Assembly: GCA_944323785.1 (NCBI GenBank) | Contig: CALUTU010000004.1 | Coordinates: forward strand, 1-64,000 | Origin: an uncultured Bacteroidales bacterium | Lineage (GTDB): Bacteria > Bacteroidota > Bacteroidia > Bacteroidales > UBA932 | Direction: 5' to 3' | Length of the DNA: 64,000 bases | In this document: positions 5,288 to 58,034 of the stretch, one piece after another | Position numbering within the stretch: the first letter of the stretch is position 1 | Layout of the letters: each line of letters begins with the position of its first letter | Notes under the pieces: generated by a model | Database searches by the model: none | What the model was told of the DNA's origin: nothing | The model's input: only the letters and a program-made list of their open reading frames with translations | Translations under genes and position numbers: made by a program

Positions 5288-5345
5288 CACAGAAACCGAA
5301 AACAAAGGAAATTTATTTACATTGCCGGGAGCTGCATTATAATGC

Positions 5346-5405: not shown

Positions 5406-7463
5406 TTAGAGAACTCTTACGCAACGGACACTGCAGCCGGAGGCCCGTTTGTTGGTGTTGTACAGGAGCATACTCTTGTTGAAGTCCACCATCCTGGAGT
5501 CACCGTCCTCGCCTACTGAAGAGGTCCAGTAGTATCCTTCGCGTCCGGAAGGCCCGGGAACAAGCCTCAGTACACCGGAATTGTTGGCCAGCTGTCCTGC
5601 GGCAGGGAAGAACGAGGAGGCGTTGGTGAAGGTGAACCCGTCCTCGAACGACCCTTCGTAAAGGATGGATGAGTCTATCCAGGCGTTCTGGCCGTCTACT
5701 GTGAATCCGGAGAATACTTTTGCGGGAGCTACCATATAACCTTTAGGGCAGGGGTCGTAGATGGTCTTTACAGGAGCAGTGTCGTCCGGATTGCCCCACA
5801 GGTAGTTGTTGCGGTGCTGGAGGTTCTCCTCATCTGTGCCGGCACCGAGTCCGTACCAGTCGAACATATTATTGTAGGTACCGGTGAAGAACATTTCGGG
5901 GAACTGAATGGCCTCGAGCAGCGTGGCCGCGTCGGATTCGGTTGAGGTCGCGTACCCGACTATAGGCTCATAGTCTGGTTCTGTGAAGACTACAGAGCCG
6001 TCAAGCAGGTATCCTGAACCGTTGAAGCCGACATACGGGTCTTTACGGCCCCACTGGTATTTCAGACCGTCATAGGTGCTGTAGCTGCTTTCGGGCTGCT
6101 CCCAGTCTCCGAGGTTGCGGTCCATGATGGTGAACTGCTCGCCGTCATTGTTGGTGCAGATTACGTCATTGACTCCGGGAGTGGCCCAAATATGCCAGCT
6201 CCAGAGCACCGTGCCTCTGTCTCTGGGATATGGATCGATTACCGGGACTCCGTCTGTCACTGCTATGACAGCATTGCCGTTTACGGTCTCCGATGTGGTG
6301 AAGACCACCTTCCCGTCATCGGTCAGTTCTACGCTGCTGATGACATTGCCTGCCTCTGTACCGGTCTCCCAGATGACGAATACATCCTTGGGGTCAAGTG
6401 CCGTCGGTGCTTCCAGTCCGGCGGTTGCTATGCCCGTACCCATGACTGTAGCATCAAAGTAGTAAGTGGTGTTGGGCTCTGATACGATATAGCTGTTGGC
6501 ATACATGCCGTCGGCGTTGAGGTCAATGCCTGTCAGCTCGGCTGCAGCTACGGAGACGGCTATCTCGTCGAATGCGCTCAGTCCGGATGCGGACAGGGCT
6601 ATTACGGACACAGTGCCTTCAGTCTCGGCGAAAGTGTTCTCCGCAGCAGGTGCGGTAATTTCGATCCTGTTCTCAACGAATCTGACTTTCCATCCGTCCG
6701 GTTTGCTTATGGAGGTGTTGACGGCTCCCGTCATGGTGTAGCCTACCGCGATGGTCTCTCCGTTGGAGAATTCCAGCGGGTCATCTGAATCAAATGAGAA
6801 AGACAGTCCTTCTGTAAGTGGCAAATGTAAGACAGTCCCGTCAAGCAGTTCTATAGTCAGTATGCCTTCCTCAATGCTGATGTCCTTAAAAATGCTTTCA
6901 TTCTCTCCGGCAGAGGGCATTCCGGTATCTTCCCATGTAATGCCTCCGTCAGTAGAGATTTCCCAATTGCCGGAGTCAGGGTTGATGCGTACCTGAGGAG
7001 CCTGGCCTGTAACAGGCATCTTGTTCCCGTCTTCGTCGGTGATAAAGGCTATTGTTCCGTCAGGATGTTCGTATGCCCAGTAATAGACACCGTTTTCCTC
7101 TATTATTGTGATGGAGGGAGGTGTTGTTCCGTCAGTGCCGTTAGTGCCGTCAATACCGTCTTTACCGTCGGAGATTGTTACAGATGTTCCATCGGAGAAA
7201 TTGATAGTGTAACTGTCGCCGTTGTCTACAACATTGTCTATTGTAACCTCCGACTGTATTTTCTCAATGATGGTCTTAAGTGAATTGAGATCGTCCTGGA
7301 AGGATTCGGACATCTTTTCCAGATATTCTATTCTGTCCTGAAGCTCCTGCATCGAATTGCGCAGTTCGGAATCGTCATAGGAGCAGAATGTGAAGGTAAA
7401 AGTGAGCAGTACGGCCGCAATAATACGGACCGATAGTCTCCTGAATAGGTTAAATGTATTCAT
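5406..7463 (-). CDS. DUF4988/FISUMP-type surface lipoprotein
   Basis: 685-residue predicted lipoprotein. The N-terminus has a hydrophobic segment ending FTFTFC-S, a plausible lipobox. Residues ~31-72 form a heptad-rich coiled coil (SMQELQDRIEYLEKM), followed by a Gly-rich collagen-like stretch (GKDGIDGTNGTDG) and GVYYWAY/WEISTDGG segments typical of DUF4988 proteins. The C-terminal ~250 residues (NDGEQFTIMDRNLG, YDPCPKGY, YYWTSS, VRCVRV) fit the Fibrobacter succinogenes major paralogous domain found in many Bacteroidales surface proteins. Role is probably surface binding of a glycan or host ligand; not established. It is divergent from the Crp/Fnr gene and has a weak -7 box (TTTCTTTG, 7494-7501) beside a palindrome, so activator dependence is likely. 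Confidence 0.75.
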   Translation of the reverse strand: MNTFNLFRRLSVRIIAAVLLTFTFTFCSYDDSELRNSMQELQDRIEYLEKMSESFQDDLNSLKTIIEKIQSEVTIDNVVDNGDSYTINFSDGTSVTISDGKDGIDGTNGTDGTTPPSITIIEENGVYYWAYEHPDGTIAFITDEDGNKMPVTGQAPQVRINPDSGNWEISTDGGITWEDTGMPSAGENESIFKDISIEEGILTIELLDGTVLHLPLTEGLSFSFDSDDPLEFSNGETIAVGYTMTGAVNTSISKPDGWKVRFVENRIEITAPAAENTFAETEGTVSVIALSASGLSAFDEIAVSVAAAELTGIDLNADGMYANSYIVSEPNTTYYFDATVMGTGIATAGLEAPTALDPKDVFVIWETGTEAGNVISSVELTDDGKVVFTTSETVNGNAVIAVTDGVPVIDPYPRDRGTVLWSWHIWATPGVNDVICTNNDGEQFTIMDRNLGDWEQPESSYSTYDGLKYQWGRKDPYVGFNGSGYLLDGSVVFTEPDYEPIVGYATSTESDAATLLEAIQFPEMFFTGTYNNMFDWYGLGAGTDEENLQHRNNYLWGNPDDTAPVKTIYDPCPKGYMVAPAKVFSGFTVDGQNAWIDSSILYEGSFEDGFTFTNASSFFPAAGQLANNSGVLRLVPGPSGREGYYWTSSVGEDGDSRMVDFNKSMLLYNTNKRASGCSVRCVRVL

Positions 7464-7493
7464 AAATTCAGTATTGGTAATTAATAACAGTTA

Positions 7494-7501
7494 CAAAGAA
7501 A
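7494..7501 (-). promoter_or_regulatory. Weak -7 element of the DUF4988-type lipoprotein gene
   Basis: Minus-strand TTTCTTTG, one mismatch from TAnnTTTG, 30 bases upstream of the ATG at 7463. Its terminal G is 36.5 bp from the centre of the palindrome at 7522-7539. Confidence 0.45.
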
Positions 7502-7521
7502 ATGGATTGAAGTCAAAAATA

Positions 7522-7539
7522 TATGAACATAGGTTCATA
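7522..7539. promoter_or_regulatory. Palindromic operator candidate (Crp/Fnr-type box)
   Basis: TATGAAC-ATAG-GTTCATA: perfect 7-bp arms with a 4-bp spacer, core TGAAC-N4-GTTCA. It lies between divergent promoters, near -40 of each, the usual place for a Crp/Fnr-family activator or autoregulator. Position relative to both -7 boxes is identical to that of the palindrome at 55278-55293. Confidence 0.6.
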
Positions 7540-7556
7540 CAGTGAAAATTTTATCG

Positions 7557-7564
7557 TTTCTTTG
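7557..7564 (+). promoter_or_regulatory. -7 element of the first Crp/Fnr gene
   Basis: TTTCTTTG, one mismatch from TAnnTTTG, ending 32 bases before the ATG at 7597 and 33.5 bp from the palindrome centre. Confidence 0.45.
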
Positions 7565-7596
7565 CATTTCCAGTGCAATATGGCTATCTTGCGTAT

Positions 7597-8181
7597 ATGA
7601 ATGAGAACCTGAAACAACTTCTTAGGGAGGAATGTAACTTCAAGCCCTCGGATGAGGTGATGGAGATGTTCCTTGGGGCCATGACCGAGATGCGGGTCAA
7701 GCCGGCAAGCCGTATCATAGATTACGGTAGGGTCAATTCGGATGTATATTGTCTGAAAGAGGGTATAGTGAGGCTTTTTCATGTGGAGGAATCCAAGGAG
7801 AAGACTTTCGGATTTGCCCTGCCCGGGACGATATTCCTCTCACCTCTCTCGTTCTATCTCAACGCACCGGCCTTTATCATGGCCGAGACGTGCAAGGTGC
7901 CTGTAACTCTGCTCAGGATGGATCGGCGGACATTCAATATGCTGGTGGATAAGTCCGGTGAATTTGCCAGGTGGATGCTTTCCCTGACTACTGCCCAGAT
8001 ATGCATATGCGAGAGAAAGCTGTCCATCATCAACGGTTCGGCCCTTGAACGTTACAAGTCGGTACTGGAGAACCGTCCCGAAATCATAGAGGCCGTTACC
8101 AATAAGGTGCTCGCCTCCTATCTTGATATCACGCCCCAGCACCTGTGCCGCCTCAAAAAACAGATTGAAGCCGGTAAATAA
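7597..8181 (+). CDS. Crp/Fnr-family transcription regulator (first copy)
   Basis: 194-residue regulator with an N-terminal cyclic-nucleotide-binding-like beta-roll (~20-115: DYGRVNSDVYCLKEGIVRLF, GTIFLSPLSF) and a C-terminal helix-turn-helix (KVLASYLDITPQHLCRLKK). No Fnr-type four-cysteine cluster is visible and the phosphate-binding cassette of true CRP is not obvious, so the ligand is unknown. The ATG at 7597 is chosen over a GTG at 7573 because the GTG lies only ~9 bases after the -7 box. It is divergent from a surface lipoprotein gene with a palindrome between them, and closely resembles the second copy at 55342 in domain layout and HTH sequence. Probable role: control of its neighbour and of itself. 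Confidence 0.85.
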   Translation: MNENLKQLLREECNFKPSDEVMEMFLGAMTEMRVKPASRIIDYGRVNSDVYCLKEGIVRLFHVEESKEKTFGFALPGTIFLSPLSFYLNAPAFIMAETCKVPVTLLRMDRRTFNMLVDKSGEFARWMLSLTTAQICICERKLSIINGSALERYKSVLENRPEIIEAVTNKVLASYLDITPQHLCRLKKQIEAGK

Positions 8182-49264: not shown

Positions 49265-51010
49265 ATGAAGTATCGCAGTATTTATTCTTCGCCTTGCTAT
49301 GGCGGTCCTAATGGGGAAAAGAACTATAATATTCAGATAGGAGACGCGGAACCGGATGACATGGGATACTTCCCTTACGGCTCCAATGTGTATACTTTCG
49401 ATACTTACTCTCTTAACGGAACCTCTGACGGTAATAATTATCTGCCGGCAGCCGGAACTTATACCGTTACTTCAGGCAATACTGATCTGACCGTCGATCC
49501 TGAATACTCAACGGCAAATCTGACTGATGTGTACGGGTATATAGAAGAAGGTACCGTGGTGATATCTTATGATGATGAGAATATGTATCTGGAAGCTTCA
49601 GTTACAGACAGTAAAGGAAACAGGCACCATGTCACGTATTCCGGTCCGATAGAGGGTAATCCATTCGGAGGAGATGATGAGGAAGAATATGACAAAGAGC
49701 TTGAAGCCGATTATATCTCGATGGAGTACAGCGGTGAGAACGGTGCGTACCGTTTTTACACGAAGCTTTCTGATTCCCCGATCGAGGACGTAGGTATGTT
49801 CGGTGCATTCGGATATTATCTGGATATCTACAGTACAGTTCCGGCGGATCCTGTCAAGCCTCTGCCCGCTACAGGCACATACACACTTGAATACGGCACG
49901 AGCCCTATGACTCTGGGTAAAGACAATACGATGACTTCAAATCTTGATTCGTTCTCGGAGGGAACTGCTGATATCAGCTATGAGGGAGACAATATAGTTA
50001 TCGAATGCGTGCTTACCAGAAGTAACGGTGAGACTCATCACATAACTTACTCCGGACCTGTATCCGTTATCGGAGGAGAAGAACCGGAGCCGGAGAATCT
50101 GACTATTTATCCTACATCAGTGCAGGCATATTATAACTGGGATGAAAACGATGTGATGGAAGTCGAGTTCACCTTCTCCAATCTGCAGAATGACGGTTAC
50201 TATAACATAGGCCCGGGAAATGAGTTGACAATAGTCGCATATCTGCCTTTTGACCAGGATGGAAACATACCGGCAAATACATACAGTGTAAATGAGTCAG
50301 GAGCCTTGTATACAATCCAGCCCGGCAGCACTTATGAGAATTTCTGGGGAGGACTGGAATATGAGGGTTCTTATTTCGGAATATATCCTGAGGGCAGTTA
50401 CTATCCGGAGACTTATTATGTCCTGAACGGAGGTTCGATGACTGTTTCCGGATCAAGCTCGAATTATTCAGTAGAGTTTAACTTTACTGCAGAAGACGGA
50501 AGCACGGTTACCGGAAGTTATACGGGTGCGATAAATATTGAAGGTATCCCCGGTCCATATTCCTGCCTGACATCGGACTACACTCTTGACCTTGCAGGTA
50601 CGGTAGCTAATACGGCCAAATATGGAGACATGTACGGTTACGGAGTAGATAACTTTGAACTGGAGCTTGCTCCGGAAAGCGGCAATGGCGACGGTTTCTT
50701 CATCAGTCTGTATACCCCGTCAGACTCCAATGTGGAGGGAATACCTTCCGGAACTTGTTATGGCAATGAGAATGCTTATAAAGAAGGGGGCTGGACACCT
50801 GGCTCATATTCTTATTCATTCTACGGAACACATTACTATGTCTATGAGGACGGTTGGAAAACGACAACGGCCGCTCCTGCGAAATCCGGAGAGTTCACAG
50901 TTGAGAATCATGGAGACGGAACATACACATTGACTTTTGCATTTGTCGATGATAAAGGTTATACATGGTCCGGCAAGTGGGAAGGTAACTTGAACATATC
51001 GGAATGGTAG
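49265..51010 (+). CDS. Repeat-bearing surface protein lacking a signal peptide (right of head-to-head pair)
   Basis: 581 residues from the first in-frame ATG; the frame is open back to 49214 without a signal peptide. Two N-terminal repeat units (GTYTVTSG ... HHVTYSGPIEG and GTYTLEYG ... HHITYSGPVS), a middle domain (VEFTFSNLQNDGYYNIGPG, SMTVSGSSSNYSV) and a C-terminal domain (GPYSCLTSDYTLDL ... DDKGYTWSGKWEGNL) match the minus-strand paralogue in order. The protein begins in the middle of the first repeat. Its 5' end meets that of the paralogue with no intergenic space or promoter. Probably truncated; function unknown. Confidence 0.7.
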   Translation: MKYRSIYSSPCYGGPNGEKNYNIQIGDAEPDDMGYFPYGSNVYTFDTYSLNGTSDGNNYLPAAGTYTVTSGNTDLTVDPEYSTANLTDVYGYIEEGTVVISYDDENMYLEASVTDSKGNRHHVTYSGPIEGNPFGGDDEEEYDKELEADYISMEYSGENGAYRFYTKLSDSPIEDVGMFGAFGYYLDIYSTVPADPVKPLPATGTYTLEYGTSPMTLGKDNTMTSNLDSFSEGTADISYEGDNIVIECVLTRSNGETHHITYSGPVSVIGGEEPEPENLTIYPTSVQAYYNWDENDVMEVEFTFSNLQNDGYYNIGPGNELTIVAYLPFDQDGNIPANTYSVNESGALYTIQPGSTYENFWGGLEYEGSYFGIYPEGSYYPETYYVLNGGSMTVSGSSSNYSVEFNFTAEDGSTVTGSYTGAINIEGIPGPYSCLTSDYTLDLAGTVANTAKYGDMYGYGVDNFELELAPESGNGDGFFISLYTPSDSNVEGIPSGTCYGNENAYKEGGWTPGSYSYSFYGTHYYVYEDGWKTTTAAPAKSGEFTVENHGDGTYTLTFAFVDDKGYTWSGKWEGNLNISEW

Positions 51011-51988: not shown

Positions 51989-53809
51989 TCATTCGGCGAC
52001 AAATGTCTCGGAAAAGAAGGTCTTACCGACAATATCGGTGTATCCGAAAGCGAAAGCTGTATATTCTGTCCCTTTGGTCAGTCCATCAGGATTGTATATC
52101 AGTTCATCGAAAGTTATCCTTGTATTCAGCATATCGTTGATGACATAGTATGAGAGCACGGATGCGATTTTAACGTCGTCTGTGTCATATCCGTCGAAGA
52201 ATGAAGTCTCGAGGACTCCGTACACGTAATATTCATCGGGATAAGGTGTGAATTTGACCGATGCATTAGATGCACTTTTGTTAAGGATCTCGATGTTGAC
52301 ATCGATGTTCACATCATCAGAGCCATCGTCTGCATTGGTTACCAGGGAGCTTGTGGTGAGATCTGAGATTCTTGTACCATATTCGCTGATGGCCATAACA
52401 CCGATGAACTGCCTGGTCTCCGGGATGGCTGCCTCACCCATCATATCGTAGTTGGATAGGGTCTGTGTGCCGGTGTATGCCAGAGCGCTCATCCAGTCGG
52501 CTCCTGATGAGCAGAGTATGTCCAGTACTTCGTCCGTCATCTCCTCCAGTGAGGGGTATGCTTCCAGAACCTCATAGGGCAGCGTATAGGCGAACCATTT
52601 CTGGTTAGGGTCAGACGGAATAATCTCAGCGGAGAATGTGGTGGACATGATATCTTTAGGAGTAATGGAGAAAGAGCAGTTAACCTTTTCCAGACTCATG
52701 GCAGAGAATTCCTCCTTCATGAGTGGAGTGGTGACAACTCCGGACACATCGCAGCCGAAAGCGAATACTACATATTTTTCTCCGTTATTGAATTCGTTGA
52801 ATGCTTCTGACTGGTTGTGATAGAACAGTATTTGGCCCATGCCTGTGCCTGATGCCTGTGATTCTTCCAGCAATTCTTCTGCGATTTTGTCGGCGGCATC
52901 CTTTCCGTATGCGTCAAATTCGTTCTTGGGCATGACACTCCAGTAGTACTGGACGGATGTGTTGCTGGGGATCACGTTTATTCTCATTCCTTCTAGTGTG
53001 GGTCGGACAATAAACTCAAAAGTGCAATCTTGCAATTCCGGTTCGGTTGTCCTGAATTCTTCCTTGAAGACTTTTGAGGTGACAGTCCCATCCGTATTAA
53101 GGCCGTATGCGTAGAAAACATAATCTGACATCGGCCTGTCTAGTGTGATTTCATAGTTTTCCATTGCACCTGTTCTTAAAAACATGGCAATAGCCTCCTC
53201 TTTTGTGATGTTCTCGTCACCGAAGGCCATGCCCCATTCGATGAAATAGTTTATATCCTGTTCAAAAAACTCTCTGCTGTTTTCCTCAAGGGCGTAATAA
53301 TCATCTTTATCTGATGTCATAGCAATGTAGGTTGCCTGAAGATCGGAGGGGATGCAGTTGATGACAACAGATCTTGAGGCAGTACTGACTACCTTTATTT
53401 CAAATGAGAGTCCTGTCTCATGAATGATATCATCGTCGGGGTTGTCTGAGGATACTCCGTTCTGGGTCACAGTCACCGTGATGTTCTCAGCGTCAGTATA
53501 TGAAAGGGTGATTTCCGTGCTGCGGCTGTTTTCATCTTCATTGCTGGAGACGGTTGCTGTCACGGTGCTCTCAGAGATTTCTTTTATGGAGATCCATCCG
53601 CAGTTTTCCGCGGTAGCTGTTAATTGCCGGCCTTCTACCGGATTGATTATGGTGTAGTTGATATTGATGTCTCCACCTGCGGCTTCAACTGTTAGAAGTT
53701 CTTGCGTCTGTATTACAGGAGCATTCTTTGAGTTGTCGGAGTTTTCGGGAGTACAGTTTGCAAATATGGCAAATGCGGCAAAAGGGATAAGTGTGAATAT
53801 TTTTTTCAT
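51989..53809 (-). CDS. BACON-domain lipoprotein with four ~110-residue repeats
   Basis: 606-residue lipoprotein (lipobox IFANC). A BACON domain (~35-125; LLTVEAAGGDININYTI, CGWISIKEI, ITVTVTQNG) is followed by four divergent ~110-residue repeats. Each begins with a beta strand and INCIPSD- or INVIPSN-like turn, carries a helical middle and ends with an aromatic YAYGLNTDGTVTS/FAFGCDVSG strand. The same repeat occurs in the proteins encoded at 53823 and 56235. BACON domains occur in Bacteroidales surface glycan or mucin-binding proteins. It starts 13 bases after the upstream lipoprotein gene, so the two form one operon. Confidence 0.8.
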   Translation of the reverse strand: MKKIFTLIPFAAFAIFANCTPENSDNSKNAPVIQTQELLTVEAAGGDININYTIINPVEGRQLTATAENCGWISIKEISESTVTATVSSNEDENSRSTEITLSYTDAENITVTVTQNGVSSDNPDDDIIHETGLSFEIKVVSTASRSVVINCIPSDLQATYIAMTSDKDDYYALEENSREFFEQDINYFIEWGMAFGDENITKEEAIAMFLRTGAMENYEITLDRPMSDYVFYAYGLNTDGTVTSKVFKEEFRTTEPELQDCTFEFIVRPTLEGMRINVIPSNTSVQYYWSVMPKNEFDAYGKDAADKIAEELLEESQASGTGMGQILFYHNQSEAFNEFNNGEKYVVFAFGCDVSGVVTTPLMKEEFSAMSLEKVNCSFSITPKDIMSTTFSAEIIPSDPNQKWFAYTLPYEVLEAYPSLEEMTDEVLDILCSSGADWMSALAYTGTQTLSNYDMMGEAAIPETRQFIGVMAISEYGTRISDLTTSSLVTNADDGSDDVNIDVNIEILNKSASNASVKFTPYPDEYYVYGVLETSFFDGYDTDDVKIASVLSYYVINDMLNTRITFDELIYNPDGLTKGTEYTAFAFGYTDIVGKTFFSETFVAE

Positions 53810-53822
53810 GTTTTGTAATTAT

Positions 53823-55205
53823 TTAGTAGGTGGGAAGTTCCTGTGTAAATAGAATAGTGGGAGATGTGGCCAGATTATAGTAGTCCAGTGTTACGTATCC
53901 ATCGCGGGTCTCCTGATAGCCTGGAGTGACATCGGTACTTGGCAGTACGGTGAAGCGGATGACTCCTTTCTCATTGTCTACGCTCACGTCCGTAACCCAG
54001 TCATAGCAATTGTATCCGGCACTGGCGCTCAGTTCTTGGCCTTCAATGGGGTTCTTTAAGACGAAAGGTACTTCATAGGAACCGCCCTCCATCGGTATGA
54101 CAGTGTTGTTGTCCCATTCGACAGTGAGTTCCGGCCGGGCTGCGGAATGGAAAGGCACTTTGGTTATACCGTTAGAGGTGACAGTGCCGTCCGTGTTCAG
54201 GCCGTATGCGTATATATAGTAGTCGGTATCGGCGTTGTACAGGTATTCATAACAATCCTGCTCCGAACCGGTGTAGATATAATCCTCAATGCTGCCGGGA
54301 TTACCGAACCAGTCTTCCGAAAGGAAATATTCAATGTCTTCTTCAATCAGTGCCATGTCGCTTCCGAAAGCATCAAATTCGGTTTTTTCCATTACAGCTC
54401 TGTAATATGTGGCTTCCTCATCTGATACTGTGATGTTGAAATATACGCCGTCAGAGGACACGGACGTGATATCGATGGTAAAGGTAAGTCCTTCTTCGAC
54501 TACTTCTTCCTCTGCTTCCTGAATAAATGTTATCGGCGTGATATCATCCGCCCCCGGATAGCTTAGCGATATAGTGCCGTGTCTGGGTCCGCTGCCCGGT
54601 TCAGAGTCATTCCCGGCTACGGTAAAGGCGATGATGCCGTCTTGTGTGCCGGTTACGGTAATCCAGTCCTGTTCCGGTACTGCCTTAAGCGCGGCGTCTT
54701 CTGCCGGGTGTTCTATGGAGTAGGCGGCTGTATAGGTTCCTCCTTCAACGGGGACAACAGTAGTGCTGTCCCAAGTGACGTTCACGACCGGAGTTTCTGG
54801 TGTTTCAGGATCGTCAGGATCTTCGATGGCTGGTGCGGACTGGGTGACTTCCACTTTGACAGTCTCTGCGTCGGGATATTCAACGGTGATGACGGCAGTC
54901 CTGTTCTCGGGATTCTCTTCGTCAGTCTCGTATTTGAGGACATCGAATGTCAAAGCGGTCTCGGTAAACACGGGACTGTCAATCCAGTCGCAGTCTGGAG
55001 TCACCTTGGTCTGCCCGGCACTGTTCTCCACCGGGTCGGTTATCGTTACCTTGAGGGTTATTGTCTCCCCTTCTGCCTTGACTGTACGGCATTTCTCAAT
55101 ATTGACAACGGGCTTGGTGGCTGGGGTTTCTTTCTCTTCTTTCTGGCAGCTCACGACAGCGGCCATGGCGGCTGCAATAAGGATTGTGGATAAGGACTTT
55201 CTCAT
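53823..55205 (-). CDS. Three-BACON lipoprotein with one ~110-residue repeat
   Basis: 460-residue lipoprotein (lipobox AAVVSC). Two BACON domains (~30-125 and ~140-235) precede one copy of the shared repeat (~240-350: VYFNITVSDEEATYYRAVMEK ... YYIYAYGLNTDGTVTS), then a third BACON domain (ELTVEWDNNTVIPMEGGSY ... PTILFTQELPTY). Such modular proteins are typically surface-exposed binding proteins. First gene of a two-gene unit. It is divergent from the second Crp/Fnr gene; its weak -7 element and a palindrome lie in the gap. Confidence 0.8.
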   Translation of the reverse strand: MRKSLSTILIAAAMAAVVSCQKEEKETPATKPVVNIEKCRTVKAEGETITLKVTITDPVENSAGQTKVTPDCDWIDSPVFTETALTFDVLKYETDEENPENRTAVITVEYPDAETVKVEVTQSAPAIEDPDDPETPETPVVNVTWDSTTVVPVEGGTYTAAYSIEHPAEDAALKAVPEQDWITVTGTQDGIIAFTVAGNDSEPGSGPRHGTISLSYPGADDITPITFIQEAEEEVVEEGLTFTIDITSVSSDGVYFNITVSDEEATYYRAVMEKTEFDAFGSDMALIEEDIEYFLSEDWFGNPGSIEDYIYTGSEQDCYEYLYNADTDYYIYAYGLNTDGTVTSNGITKVPFHSAARPELTVEWDNNTVIPMEGGSYEVPFVLKNPIEGQELSASAGYNCYDWVTDVSVDNEKGVIRFTVLPSTDVTPGYQETRDGYVTLDYYNLATSPTILFTQELPTY

Positions 55206-55248: not shown

Positions 55249-55256
55249 CAAAAATG
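55249..55256 (-). promoter_or_regulatory. Weak -7 element of the BACON lipoprotein operon
   Basis: Minus-strand CATTTTTG, one mismatch from TAnnTTTG, 43 bases upstream of the ATG at 55205. Its terminal G is 36.5 bp from the palindrome centre, exactly as at 7494-7501. Confidence 0.45.
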
Positions 55257-55277: not shown

Positions 55278-55293
55278 GTTGACAAATGTCAAC
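55278..55293. promoter_or_regulatory. Palindromic operator candidate (Crp/Fnr-type box)
   Basis: GTTGACA-AA-TGTCAAC: perfect 7-bp arms; core TTGAC-N4-GTCAA, close to the Fnr box TTGAT-N4-ATCAA. It sits between divergent promoters of the Crp/Fnr gene and the BACON operon, near -40 of each. Confidence 0.65.
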
Positions 55294-55311: not shown

Positions 55312-55319
55312 TATTTTTG
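55312..55319 (+). promoter_or_regulatory. -7 element of the second Crp/Fnr gene
   Basis: TATTTTTG (TAnnTTTG) ends 22 bases before the ATG at 55342 and 33.5 bp from the palindrome centre. Confidence 0.6.
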
Positions 55320-55341: not shown

Positions 55342-55917
55342 ATGAATGATGTGATGGAATGTTTTTCACGAGAAGGCAGTTTTATCCTTCCTGAGGATCT
55401 AGCTCATAAGATTTTTTCCGGGGCAGAAGATGTCTGGGTTGGCCCTAGGGAGAGTGTAATCGGGTATGGCAAGGTTGATACCAATATATACATAGTCGCT
55501 GAAGGTATCCTGAGAGCCGGGTATTTTGACGGCAATAAAGAAGTTACGCTGGCTTTTACGGATATCGGCACCATGTTCATGTCCCTTCACGGATACTTTG
55601 CCGGGAAACCTGCGTTCATCTATTATCAGGCATGCAGCAAATGTCTGTTGAAGAGGATATCCAAGGAGTTTTTCGACAATCTGATAGAGGAGTCGCCGGT
55701 GTTTGCCCGCTGGGTGTATTCGGTGGCGATACATCAGCTGTATGCTCTTGAAAGGAAAGTTTCCCTTATCAACGGGACGGTCAAGGAACGGTATCTGGCA
55801 CTGATCAAGAATAGGCCGGATATCATCAAGAATGTCTCAATGAAGGTAATTGCCAGCTATTTAGGTGTTTCGCCCTATTATCTGTGCCGGTTGAAAAAGA
55901 CTCTTTTGAACGAATAA
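55342..55917 (+). CDS. Crp/Fnr-family transcription regulator (second copy)
   Basis: 191 residues with an N-terminal beta-roll (~25-115: ESVIGYGKVDTNIYIVAEGILRAGYF, TDIGTMFMSLHGYF) and a C-terminal HTH (KVIASYLGVSPYYLCRLKKTL). The HTH is nearly the same as in the copy at 7597, and both lack an Fnr iron-sulfur cysteine cluster. The ATG at 55342 follows the -7 element by 22 bases; an upstream TTG at 55279 lies within the operator and is rejected. It is divergent from the BACON lipoprotein operon with a palindrome between them, pointing to local control and autoregulation. The activating signal is unknown. Confidence 0.88.
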   Translation: MNDVMECFSREGSFILPEDLAHKIFSGAEDVWVGPRESVIGYGKVDTNIYIVAEGILRAGYFDGNKEVTLAFTDIGTMFMSLHGYFAGKPAFIYYQACSKCLLKRISKEFFDNLIEESPVFARWVYSVAIHQLYALERKVSLINGTVKERYLALIKNRPDIIKNVSMKVIASYLGVSPYYLCRLKKTLLNE

Positions 55918-55971: not shown

Positions 55972-56058
55972 GGTGAGGTGGGTGAGTGGCTTAAACCAGC
56001 AGTTTGCTAAACTGCCGTACGGGTTACCGTACCGGGGGTTCGAATCCCCCCCTCACCG
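55972..56058 (+). tRNA. tRNA-Ser(GCT)
   Basis: 87 bases with acceptor GGTGAGG/CCTCACC, discriminator G, anticodon loop TTGCTAA (anticodon GCT, reading AGC/AGU), a long class II variable arm (GTACGG...CCGTAC) and T loop TTCGAAT. CCA is not encoded. Confidence 0.96.
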
Positions 56059-56059
56059 C

Positions 56060-56114
56060 AAAAGGGTACAAAGAGGCCGCAGAGCTTGCTCTAGCGGCTT
56101 TTTTGTACCCTTTT
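56060..56114. terminator. Terminator after tRNA-Ser
   Basis: Outer stem AAAAGGGTACAAA/TTTGTACCCTTTT (56060-56072 with 56102-56114) and inner stem GCCGC/GCGGC, with a T run (56099-56104). Symmetric enough to act on both strands. Confidence 0.75.
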
Positions 56115-56155
56115 GCAAAGCCCGCCGCCATCCCCAGGTGCAGGTGTGTGAATAA

Positions 56156-56169
56156 TTGACATATGGCAA
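56156..56169. promoter_or_regulatory. Possible third Crp/Fnr-type box
   Basis: TTGAC-ATAT-GGCAA differs from TTGAC-N4-GTCAA by one base. Its centre lies 36.5 bp from the G ending CAAGTTTG (56192-56199), a weak -7-like box before the lipoprotein gene at 56235; this spacing equals that of the other two lipoprotein promoters. Confidence 0.4.
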
Positions 56170-56191
56170 CATTGTTCTGGAAATTATTAGG

Positions 56192-56199
56192 CAAGTTTG
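56192..56199 (+). promoter_or_regulatory. Weak -7 element of the five-repeat lipoprotein gene
   Basis: CAAGTTTG, one mismatch from TAnnTTTG, 35 bases upstream of the ATG at 56235. Confidence 0.4.
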
Positions 56200-56234
56200 C
56201 ACTTTCAAAAATAATAACCAATACCTGATGATTT

Positions 56235-58034
56235 ATGAAGAAGATTTTTATCAACGCAATGATTGCGGTTATGACGGCGGCAATGCTGGCTTCCTGTGAC
56301 AAGGCCGGGCCCGATACGGGATCTGTCGTCCCGCCAGACACTCCGTCAGAGCAGGAACTGCCGGAGATGTTGTCCATTACACTTCTCCGTGTGACCGATA
56401 CGGGAGTGGTGCTGAAGTGTGAGTCCGTATCGGAGGACAGTACCTATTATCTGCGTGTAGGACCTGCCGAAGAGGTTGAGGGACTGACAGATGAGGAGGT
56501 GCAGGCTTTTGACGCGCAGTTCTTTGTAGAGGAGGCCGCGGCTCTTGACATGACATTGGAGGAGTACTTGTCTCTGCGCCTGGACAGAGGTACGGTTTCG
56601 GTTGCCTTGGGCAATCTGGAGCCGGGGGCCGGATATTGCGCTTATGGATACGGCCTGACTGCAGACGGGACTGTCACATCGGTGATGGAGCGCCGTCCGT
56701 TTGTGACGCTCAGCTCGGATGAGCCTTTTGTCACCGTTTCTTTCGGCAGTATCGGACCCGATGAGGCCGAAGTGACATTCATTCCTGCCGATGATGAGAT
56801 AACGTATGTCTTCGATATACGTCCGGCTGAGGATTATCTTGCCATGAGCGATGCGGAGTGTATAGAGGATATCATCAGTGCCGGAGTTTCCGAGGATATG
56901 ATCAGGACAGGGGAATACACCCATGTGTTTGACGGACTTACTCCTGAGACGGAATACATTGTGTTTGCCTTCGGTTATGACGTTCCTTCCGGTCAGACTA
57001 TTACATCGCTTGCCAGGGAGTTGTTCGAGAGTACATCAGGGATGCTGCCGGACTTTTCCATAGAGGTGAGGGTCGAGAATATAACGCCTTCGTCTGCGGA
57101 CATATCTTTCATCCCGTCGGATAAGAACGCCTCTTATTTTTATGATGTGTTGCCGGCCGCTGCTTATGAAGGGATGTCGGACAGCGAGGTTATTGAGGCG
57201 GCTCTCGGTGCTGCCGGAGAAAGCGGCCTGCTTTATTATTACCTGACGAGCGGGGACGAGAGCTTCTCGCAGGCTCTCGTCCATGACAGGGATTATGTCG
57301 CCTATGCCTTCGCTTATGATTATTTTTCCGGTGGGGCGGCATCCGGTCTGTTCAGACATGATTTCACATCAGGACATTCGGATGTTCCGCAGTTCTCTGT
57401 GGAGATAGAGGTCGGGGAGATTACATCGGATATGGCTACTGTAATCTTCAGGGGCTCGGATGAGGAGACGCCTTATTTTTTCTATCTGGCGAAGAGCGCT
57501 GAGCTTGCAGGTCTCAGCGGAGATGCTCTGGTGGAGCAGGCCCTGAGCCTTCCCGGCTATGCGGGCTCGTGGATTGAGCGTGGAGAGTACGAGTACAGCT
57601 GGGAGGTCAATCCCGGAACGGAGTACACGGCGATTGCGTTCGGATATGACAGCGATATCGTAACTACTGTCCCGTTTACCAGGTCGTTCAATACTCCGGA
57701 CTGGGAAGATCCGTCGCAGCAGTTCAGAATAGAAATCAGCAATCTGACCGCTACGACTGTGGATGTCCGTATCATTCCGGCCGACAAGGACATGGAGTAT
57801 TTTACCGACATAGTGGTGTCGGCGGATTATGAGGGCCTGAGTGATGATGAGATAACTGAGAAACTGATAGACAACTCTTACTATTTTTATGCAGACAGCG
57901 GGATAGAGGATTATCCGTACTACGGTCTGATGCCTGACACGGATTATACCGTGTATGTATTCGGATGTGACTCTTATACTGAGGAGAGGACTACGCCGCT
58001 CTACAGTCTGGACCTGCATACTGAGAAAGAATAA
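56235..58034 (+). CDS. Lipoprotein with five ~110-residue repeats
   Basis: 599-residue lipoprotein (lipobox AMLASC). After an acidic/Pro linker it is made entirely of five copies of the repeat seen in the two BACON lipoproteins upstream: copies begin near residues 45, 157, 273, 386 and 497. Each has a strand, an IPADD/IPSDK turn, an acidic helical middle (for example SDAECIEDIISAGVSEDMI) and a closing aromatic strand (YGYGLTADGTVTS, FAFGYDVPSGQ, YAFAYDYFSG, IAFGYDSD, VFGCDSY). There is no BACON domain. Ligand unknown; probably a surface-binding protein. A Crp/Fnr-type box and weak -7 element lie upstream. Confidence 0.78.
   Translation: MKKIFINAMIAVMTAAMLASCDKAGPDTGSVVPPDTPSEQELPEMLSITLLRVTDTGVVLKCESVSEDSTYYLRVGPAEEVEGLTDEEVQAFDAQFFVEEAAALDMTLEEYLSLRLDRGTVSVALGNLEPGAGYCAYGYGLTADGTVTSVMERRPFVTLSSDEPFVTVSFGSIGPDEAEVTFIPADDEITYVFDIRPAEDYLAMSDAECIEDIISAGVSEDMIRTGEYTHVFDGLTPETEYIVFAFGYDVPSGQTITSLARELFESTSGMLPDFSIEVRVENITPSSADISFIPSDKNASYFYDVLPAAAYEGMSDSEVIEAALGAAGESGLLYYYLTSGDESFSQALVHDRDYVAYAFAYDYFSGGAASGLFRHDFTSGHSDVPQFSVEIEVGEITSDMATVIFRGSDEETPYFFYLAKSAELAGLSGDALVEQALSLPGYAGSWIERGEYEYSWEVNPGTEYTAIAFGYDSDIVTTVPFTRSFNTPDWEDPSQQFRIEISNLTATTVDVRIIPADKDMEYFTDIVVSADYEGLSDDEITEKLIDNSYYFYADSGIEDYPYYGLMPDTDYTVYVFGCDSYTEERTTPLYSLDLHTEKE

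Follow-up and report, generated by a model that had tools for sequence, protein, structure and literature searches.

Activation of class II promoters is typified in E. coli by CRP, bound near -41.5; CRP proper is marked by the Glu and Arg that bind the phosphate of cyclic AMP (cAMP), and FNR proper by a cluster of iron-sulphur cysteines. To our knowledge, activator geometry in the Bacteroidota has been little mapped. Here we describe a family of Crp/Fnr-type regulator genes, each divergent from a predicted surface-lipoprotein gene (together, a divergon), as met in two loci of an uncultured Bacteroidales bacterium (lineage UBA932; assembly GCA_944323785.1, contig CALUTU010000004.1, positions 1 to 64,000, the 64,000-nucleotide (nt) stretch called the window below). 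Bacteroides promoters carry a -7 element, TAnnTTTG, centred at -7, with a further element near -33 (PMC7366714). The window loci are like the class II CRP-dependent promoters of E. coli in their Crp-fold protein, their two-fold operator and an operator centre that would lie near -41 if the -7 box ends near -4; they differ in that the -7 box is of the Bacteroidota form (TAnnTTTG), the regulators are local and have few targets, the operators fall into several classes, and the canonical cAMP residues were not seen. Surface variation by DNA inversion in Bacteroidales (compare PMC4747536) likewise turns surface molecules on and off singly, whereas here dedicated regulators and operators would do so. 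The mechanism proposed below would be known in kind, as local class II activation; neither papers on such regulator/lipoprotein divergons nor this Crp/Fnr-type family with its co-diverged operators was found in the open-access literature that we searched.

A sequence-only reading of the window had proposed that the two divergons share one operator geometry. Operator 1, read directly, is TATGAACATAGGTTCATA (TATGAAC-ATAG-GTTCATA) and operator 2 is GTTGACAAATGTCAAC (GTTGACA-AA-TGTCAAC); both palindromes stand where that reading had placed them (Table 1), each with a 5-N4-5 core (TGAAC-N4-GTTCA and TTGAC-N4-GTCAA, respectively). Recomputation also returned the distances that it had reported: each operator centre lies 36.5 base pairs (bp) from the G ending the minus-strand -7 box of the lipoprotein gene (G7494 in TTTCTTTG; G55249 in CATTTTTG), and 33.5 bp from the G ending the box of the regulator gene (G7564 in TTTCTTTG; G55319 in TATTTTTG). 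The idea of one plan for both switches stood on the lipoprotein side, where it holds in other species and paralogues, and fell on the regulator side, where the distance ranges from 12.5 to 34.5 bp or a box is absent, and which we rejected as part of the plan. A search for the palindromes alone, allowing two mismatches, was near chance in the window and also in this genome (operator 1, 8 places against 11 for the control; operator 2, 6 against 3), so it is the fixed distance that carries the signal. A wider operator 1 regulon was rejected, as this search was at background and the other seven places had no box at 36.5 bp.

The lipoprotein-side spacing is real, and general across species and paralogues. 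Of 94 distinct regulator genes, 19 are paired across the gap with a lipoprotein gene or with what remains of a broken one, and each of these 19 divergons has a 5-N4-5 palindrome whose centre stands 36.5 bp from where the lipoprotein -7 box ends. A 33-row tree places the divergon members in clades A (with regulator 1), B and C (with regulator 2); L015 falls beside A and B, and was counted with clade B because of its operator. For a test of the geometry the 19 were sorted by hand into 14 sequence clusters across the three clades, and the box was chosen blind, by its likeness to TAnnTTTG, within 8-60, 20-50 or 15-45 nt upstream of the lipoprotein start; loci had been read by eye, and clusters set, before the test, the choice of box being blind and that of loci not. 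The mean number of complementary pairs (of 8) at 36.5 bp was 5.64 for the first two ranges and 5.96 for the third, against means of 2.35-2.37 at the other 43 offsets (standard deviation (sd) 0.44-0.46, maximum 3.24), and none of 10,000 circular-shift controls reached this score in any range. Without the two window clusters (n=12) the values were 5.83 and 2.37 (sd 0.54), again with 0/10,000; a stricter blind rule demanding TTT, which misses L013 and L014 (lipoprotein box TATTTTCG in both), gave 4.86 against 2.42, with 0/20,000. By clade, the shuffles that reached the 36.5-bp score numbered, per 10,000 in the three ranges, 40, 0 and 40 for A, none in any range for B, and 92, 81 and 84 for C.

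Outside the 14-cluster test stood L059, L002, L048 and L023, together with L017 and L025, which do not belong to the clade, and all other homologues. L059, which comes from a different genus of the family, is a twentieth divergon, with a 6/6 box and TTGAACT and ATGACAA meeting at 36.5 bp, the core being as in L016. The search of relatives and alignment of their gaps that the sequence-only reading had called for thus shows operator and spacing recurring in 20 of the 23 rows of the divergon group (the 19 tested and L059); for L048 and L023 a divergent lipoprotein gene was not found, and L002 ends at a contig edge, 63 bp upstream. At 62 non-divergon homologue loci, mostly from two families of the same order (f25 and f21), 0/114 boxes had at least 6 pairs at 36.5 bp (mean at other offsets 1.33), in a control that still included L059 with its 5 pairs. 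Box-to-ATG distances are mostly 26-33 nt, in line with the 23-nt mode given for 5' untranslated regions of B. thetaiotaomicron (PMC7366714). That reading had also called the lipoprotein boxes weak; each of the two window boxes does match the consensus in five positions out of six (5/6), but weakness is not a general trait, since six of the other 12 clusters have a 6/6 box and six a 5/6 box.

As read from the aligned sequences, the spacer from operator to box is held in length and not in its letters: aligned on the box, spacer identity is 38% within clades and 34% between them, and the operator halves are 74% and 84% identical among members of one clade and 45-51% from one clade to another. Spacers that have diverged while their length and the operators were kept argue against mere descent. 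That the spacing shared by the window loci arose by accident in two AT-rich gaps, or was inherited and has no present function, is barely credible; the near-chance frequency of single palindromes and the unconserved match on the regulator side would suit that explanation, but 36.5 bp recurs in the 12 further clusters and in L059, the diverged spacers speak against it, and a third site in the window (below) has the same spacing.

Table 1. Features of the window loci; distances run from operator centre to the G ending the -7 box (aa, amino acids; ORF, open reading frame)
Feature	Position	Strand	Remarks
Lipoprotein gene 1	5406..7463	-	685 aa; ORF; Pfam DUF4988, E 1.1e-27
-7 box of lipoprotein gene 1, TTTCTTTG	7494..7501	-	36.5 bp from operator 1 centre; likewise in L009
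Operator 1	7522..7539		centre 7530.5; not matched exactly anywhere else in this genome
Candidate -7 box of regulator 1, TTTCTTTG	7557..7564	+	33.5 bp from operator 1 centre; distance varies among other clade A members
Regulator 1, Crp/Fnr-type, clade A	7597..8181	+	194 aa; ORF; cNMP_binding
Lipoprotein gene 2b	51989..53809	-	606 aa; ORF; BACON; related to 2a
Lipoprotein gene 2a	53823..55205	-	460 aa; ORF; BACON; lipobox VVSC by eye
-7 box of lipoprotein operon 2, CATTTTTG	55249..55256	-	36.5 bp from operator 2 centre
Operator 2	55278..55293		centre 55285.5; identical 14-mer in G013 and G018 orthologues
-7 box of regulator 2, TATTTTTG	55312..55319	+	33.5 bp from operator 2 centre; the relatives L016 and L028 have 22.5
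Regulator 2, Crp/Fnr-type, clade C	55342..55917	+	191 aa; ORF; cNMP_binding below cut-off; alignment
Operator 3, ATTGACA-TA-TGGCAAC	56155..56170		centre 56162.5; imperfect copy of operator 2; genome pattern search and 36.5-bp scan
-7 box of lipoprotein gene 3, CAAGTTTG	56192..56199	+	36.5 bp from operator 3; ends 36 bp before gene start
Lipoprotein gene 3	56235..58034	+	599 aa; ORF; lipobox LASC by eye

Operators differ between clades, and they differ together with the helix predicted to read them. Clade A has TGAAC and TTAA, clade B TTGTA or TAGTA, and clade C TTGAC, or TTGAA with TTGTC. Operator distance follows recognition-helix distance (Mantel r 0.69, p 1e-4) more closely than sensor-domain distance (0.33), and the relation holds once sensor-domain distance is removed (partial Mantel r 0.65, p 1e-4). 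In the 19 genomes of the genus the exact clade-B operator occurs at 7 places, one in each genome with a clade-B regulator (n=7) and all at divergons; the exact clade-C 14-mer occurs at 5 places, 4 of them at divergons. These results bear on whether the operators might be bound by another, global Crp-like protein, the adjacent regulators acting elsewhere. The genome does hold at least one Crp/Fnr-type gene of more distant kinship (L007), but operator classes that track the recognition helix of the neighbouring regulator, and exact clade-B sites confined to the genus genomes with clade-B regulators, make this very unlikely. Clade-B sites with one mismatch were taken as background, being no more frequent than the control in most genomes of the genus; so were one-mismatch clade-C sites, though there the picture was mixed, with G000, G006 and G010 among the genomes above control. 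Only part of these one-mismatch places was read (62 loci, L154-L215), and further sites are possible; in the loci read, a box at 36.5 bp was present only at divergons and at the third-lipoprotein site (G000 and G018).

On the regulator side the distance from operator centre to candidate box is 33.5 bp in L001/L009, L012/L018 and L006, 34.5 in L011, 30.5 in L010, 22.5 in L016 and L028, and 12.5 in L014, L004, L022, L019, L020 and L027, six loci that all belong to clade B; a usable box was not found in L047, L003, L013 or L015, and where several 5/6 boxes were present one was picked by eye. As this distance is free to vary, self-control probably differs among members. A dimer 12.5 bp (clade B) or 22.5 bp (two clade C members) from the end of the regulator's own box should repress its own gene; at 33.5 bp, as in the window loci, self-control could be of either sign.

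We picture the regulator as a small protein of Crp/Fnr type that presumably forms a dimer and would fit its own 14-bp 5-N4-5 operator with its recognition helix. If the box ends near -4, the operator centre would lie near -40 to -42. From this class II position a dimer of the Crp type would overlap the -33 region and recruit RNA polymerase, most likely activating the divergent predicted surface-lipoprotein gene or operon. A spacing that is fixed on the lipoprotein side and free on the regulator side points to polymerase contact, and hence to activation, on the lipoprotein side. A palindrome at about -41 would also overlap the upstream edge of the promoter, and the regulator might instead repress the lipoprotein gene, blocking polymerase until a signal releases it. 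Such repression fits the same operator data; moreover, in clade B a protein bound to this site should obstruct the -7 region of the regulator gene itself, so that the protein may repress, and TTTG is retained 23-25 bp before the box end in five of the 14 lipoprotein promoters (in L006 a TTTG lies inside the operator). We nevertheless think it improbable, for repressors tolerate varied positions, as the regulator side illustrates, whereas the lipoprotein side is exact to the base pair over diverged spacers, as polymerase contact would lead one to expect.

Activation from the class II position is thus the reading that we prefer, and these genes quite probably form a family of paralogues that act locally as Crp/Fnr-type class II activators, each serving its own surface-lipoprotein unit, while self-control is arranged independently. 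Binding by the regulators, activation, the sign of self-control and surface exposure of the lipoproteins are all predictions from sequence. In the window we infer lipoprotein gene 1 to be the target of regulator 1, and gene 2a the divergent target of regulator 2; genes 2a and 2b, the latter starting 13 bp behind the former, are probably co-transcribed. A more far-reaching version, in which duplication and the co-divergence of helix and operator would have produced mutually insulated class II switches, each for one surface-lipoprotein unit and with self-control (positive, negative or none) freely rewired, is in our view doubtful. If true, it would amount to a switchboard of surface lipoproteins expressible one by one, bistable where self-control is positive.

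Several observations weigh against the preferred reading, that of local class II activators. L017, a remote relative outside the group, faces a lipoprotein gene without an operator, and L123 faces a lipoprotein-like gene, also without one. The lipoprotein frame is broken in L018, L011 and L027, the start codon is uncertain in L015, and draft genomes supply many of the loci. Palindromes are weak in L016 (4/8 pairs) and in L059 (5 pairs, same core). The absence of a -33 element holds only in part: between 42 and 17 bp before the box end, TTTG is lacking in 8 of the 14 promoters. The fifth exact clade-C site is in G001, a genome without such a regulator. At locus 1 the lipoprotein strand carries a second, perfect box, TATTTTTG, its G 51 nt before the ATG, which overlaps a palindrome arm and which the best-box rule picks at L001 rather than the box at 36.5 bp; in place of the perfect box L009, an orthologue, has CATTTTTG, and L047, from an Alistipes strain, has ATTTTTTG; the box at 36.5 bp is kept in L009 and reads TTACTTTG in L047. 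Finally, the regulators do not match Pfam HTH_Crp, and in a profile alignment to SthK the Glu and Arg that bind the phosphate of cyclic nucleotides were not seen.

Regulators 1 and 2 are, as judged by profile and model, Crp/Fnr-type proteins, with a cyclic-nucleotide (cNMP) type domain and a helix-turn-helix that is taken from the model of regulator 1. Against PF00027 regulator 1 scores 27.7 bits (cut-off 27.5) and regulator 2 scores 24.3, under the cut-off. The AlphaFold model of regulator 1 (predicted local distance difference test, pLDDT, 92.6) is matched to CAP/CRP over its full length by Foldseek (E 8.9e-11, template-modelling score, TM, 0.75), and for regulator 1 alone it gives a C-terminal helix-turn-helix with helices at 161-166, 169-175 and 180-193. 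The best sequence match among solved structures, PDB 3dn7, a cyclic nucleotide binding regulatory protein, spans sensor and helix-turn-helix (E 2.2e-19) and is a distant relative. An FNR-type cysteine cluster was not found in a 22-row alignment, where just one of the columns that are invariant, or almost so, holds a cysteine (C99).

The spacing rule, being exact to the base pair, predicts targets from sequence alone, and has yielded both a third site in the window and the twentieth divergon, in another genus. When the window was scanned at 36.5 bp, 6 of 137 TTTG boxes had a palindrome of at least 6/8 pairs, against a mean of 0.42% at other offsets. One of these sites is operator 3, which faces lipoprotein gene 3, a relative of gene 2b (E 7e-21); this gene is predicted to be a second target of regulator 2, which probably activates it too. 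Operator 3 and lipoprotein gene 3 are both present in G000 and G018, and neither is at that place in G013, where the locus is nearly identical to the window up to and beyond a tRNA-Ser gene (55972-56059). Three other matches of the scan were taken as chance: that at 50274 falls within an opposite-strand reading frame, that at 55638 inside regulator 2, and at 5303 a better box, TATCTTTG, is nearer the gene. The segment beside the tRNA-Ser gene, 56060-56234, varies among species, with short GC-rich repeats at the junction in G013 and G018 (L032 and L033).

The sequence-only reading had spoken of two paralogous switches. Its regulators are indeed of Crp/Fnr type and divergent from lipoprotein genes, but the genome has five full-length paralogues rather than two, together with one 3'-end fragment and one more distant relative. 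Matches occur in 8 of the 19 genomes of the genus (at E 1e-20) and 19 of 398 of the family (at E 1e-25); a close member, 71% identical, is found in Alistipes sp. Marseille-P5061, where its partner is likewise a DUF4988 protein. Homologues in the same-order families f25 and f21 belong to the same protein family (E down to 2.7e-69). In a loose screen, a lipobox-positive neighbour was present at 18 of the 19 divergons and at 23 of 64 non-divergon loci, many of the latter doubtful. Paralogous pairs of regulator and operator with changing recognition helices offer a natural data set for the code of DNA recognition, and may be a source of insulated parts for gut Bacteroidales.

Some smaller observations concern individual members. 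The f25 loci (L089, L122-L124 in G1066, and others) show up to four regulator copies per genome, without the operator layout of the lipoprotein side. In L027 (G015:C18), L018 (G013:C27) and L011 (G015:C34) the lipoprotein frame is interrupted close to its start, with operator and box retained; a run of T stands there in L027. Decay, slippage or an assembly error could each account for the three breaks. Lipoprotein gene 1 has a lipobox-like TFTFC, read by eye, and a weak FISUMP-like end that scores below the cut-off; over its N-terminal 300 residues the product is similar to the BT3328 hyaluronic acid lyase family model (E 1.6e-30, well short of the cut-off). A fragment of the regulator 1 gene lies at another place in four species (L005 1501-1719, that is, G000:C19:1932-2150; also L026, L021 and L030); it covers residues 119-191 at 95-97% identity or, in G018, residues 136-191 at 88% identity. 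Of these species, G015 and G018 showed no close full-length orthologue of regulator 1, and the downstream flanks of the fragments resemble each other.

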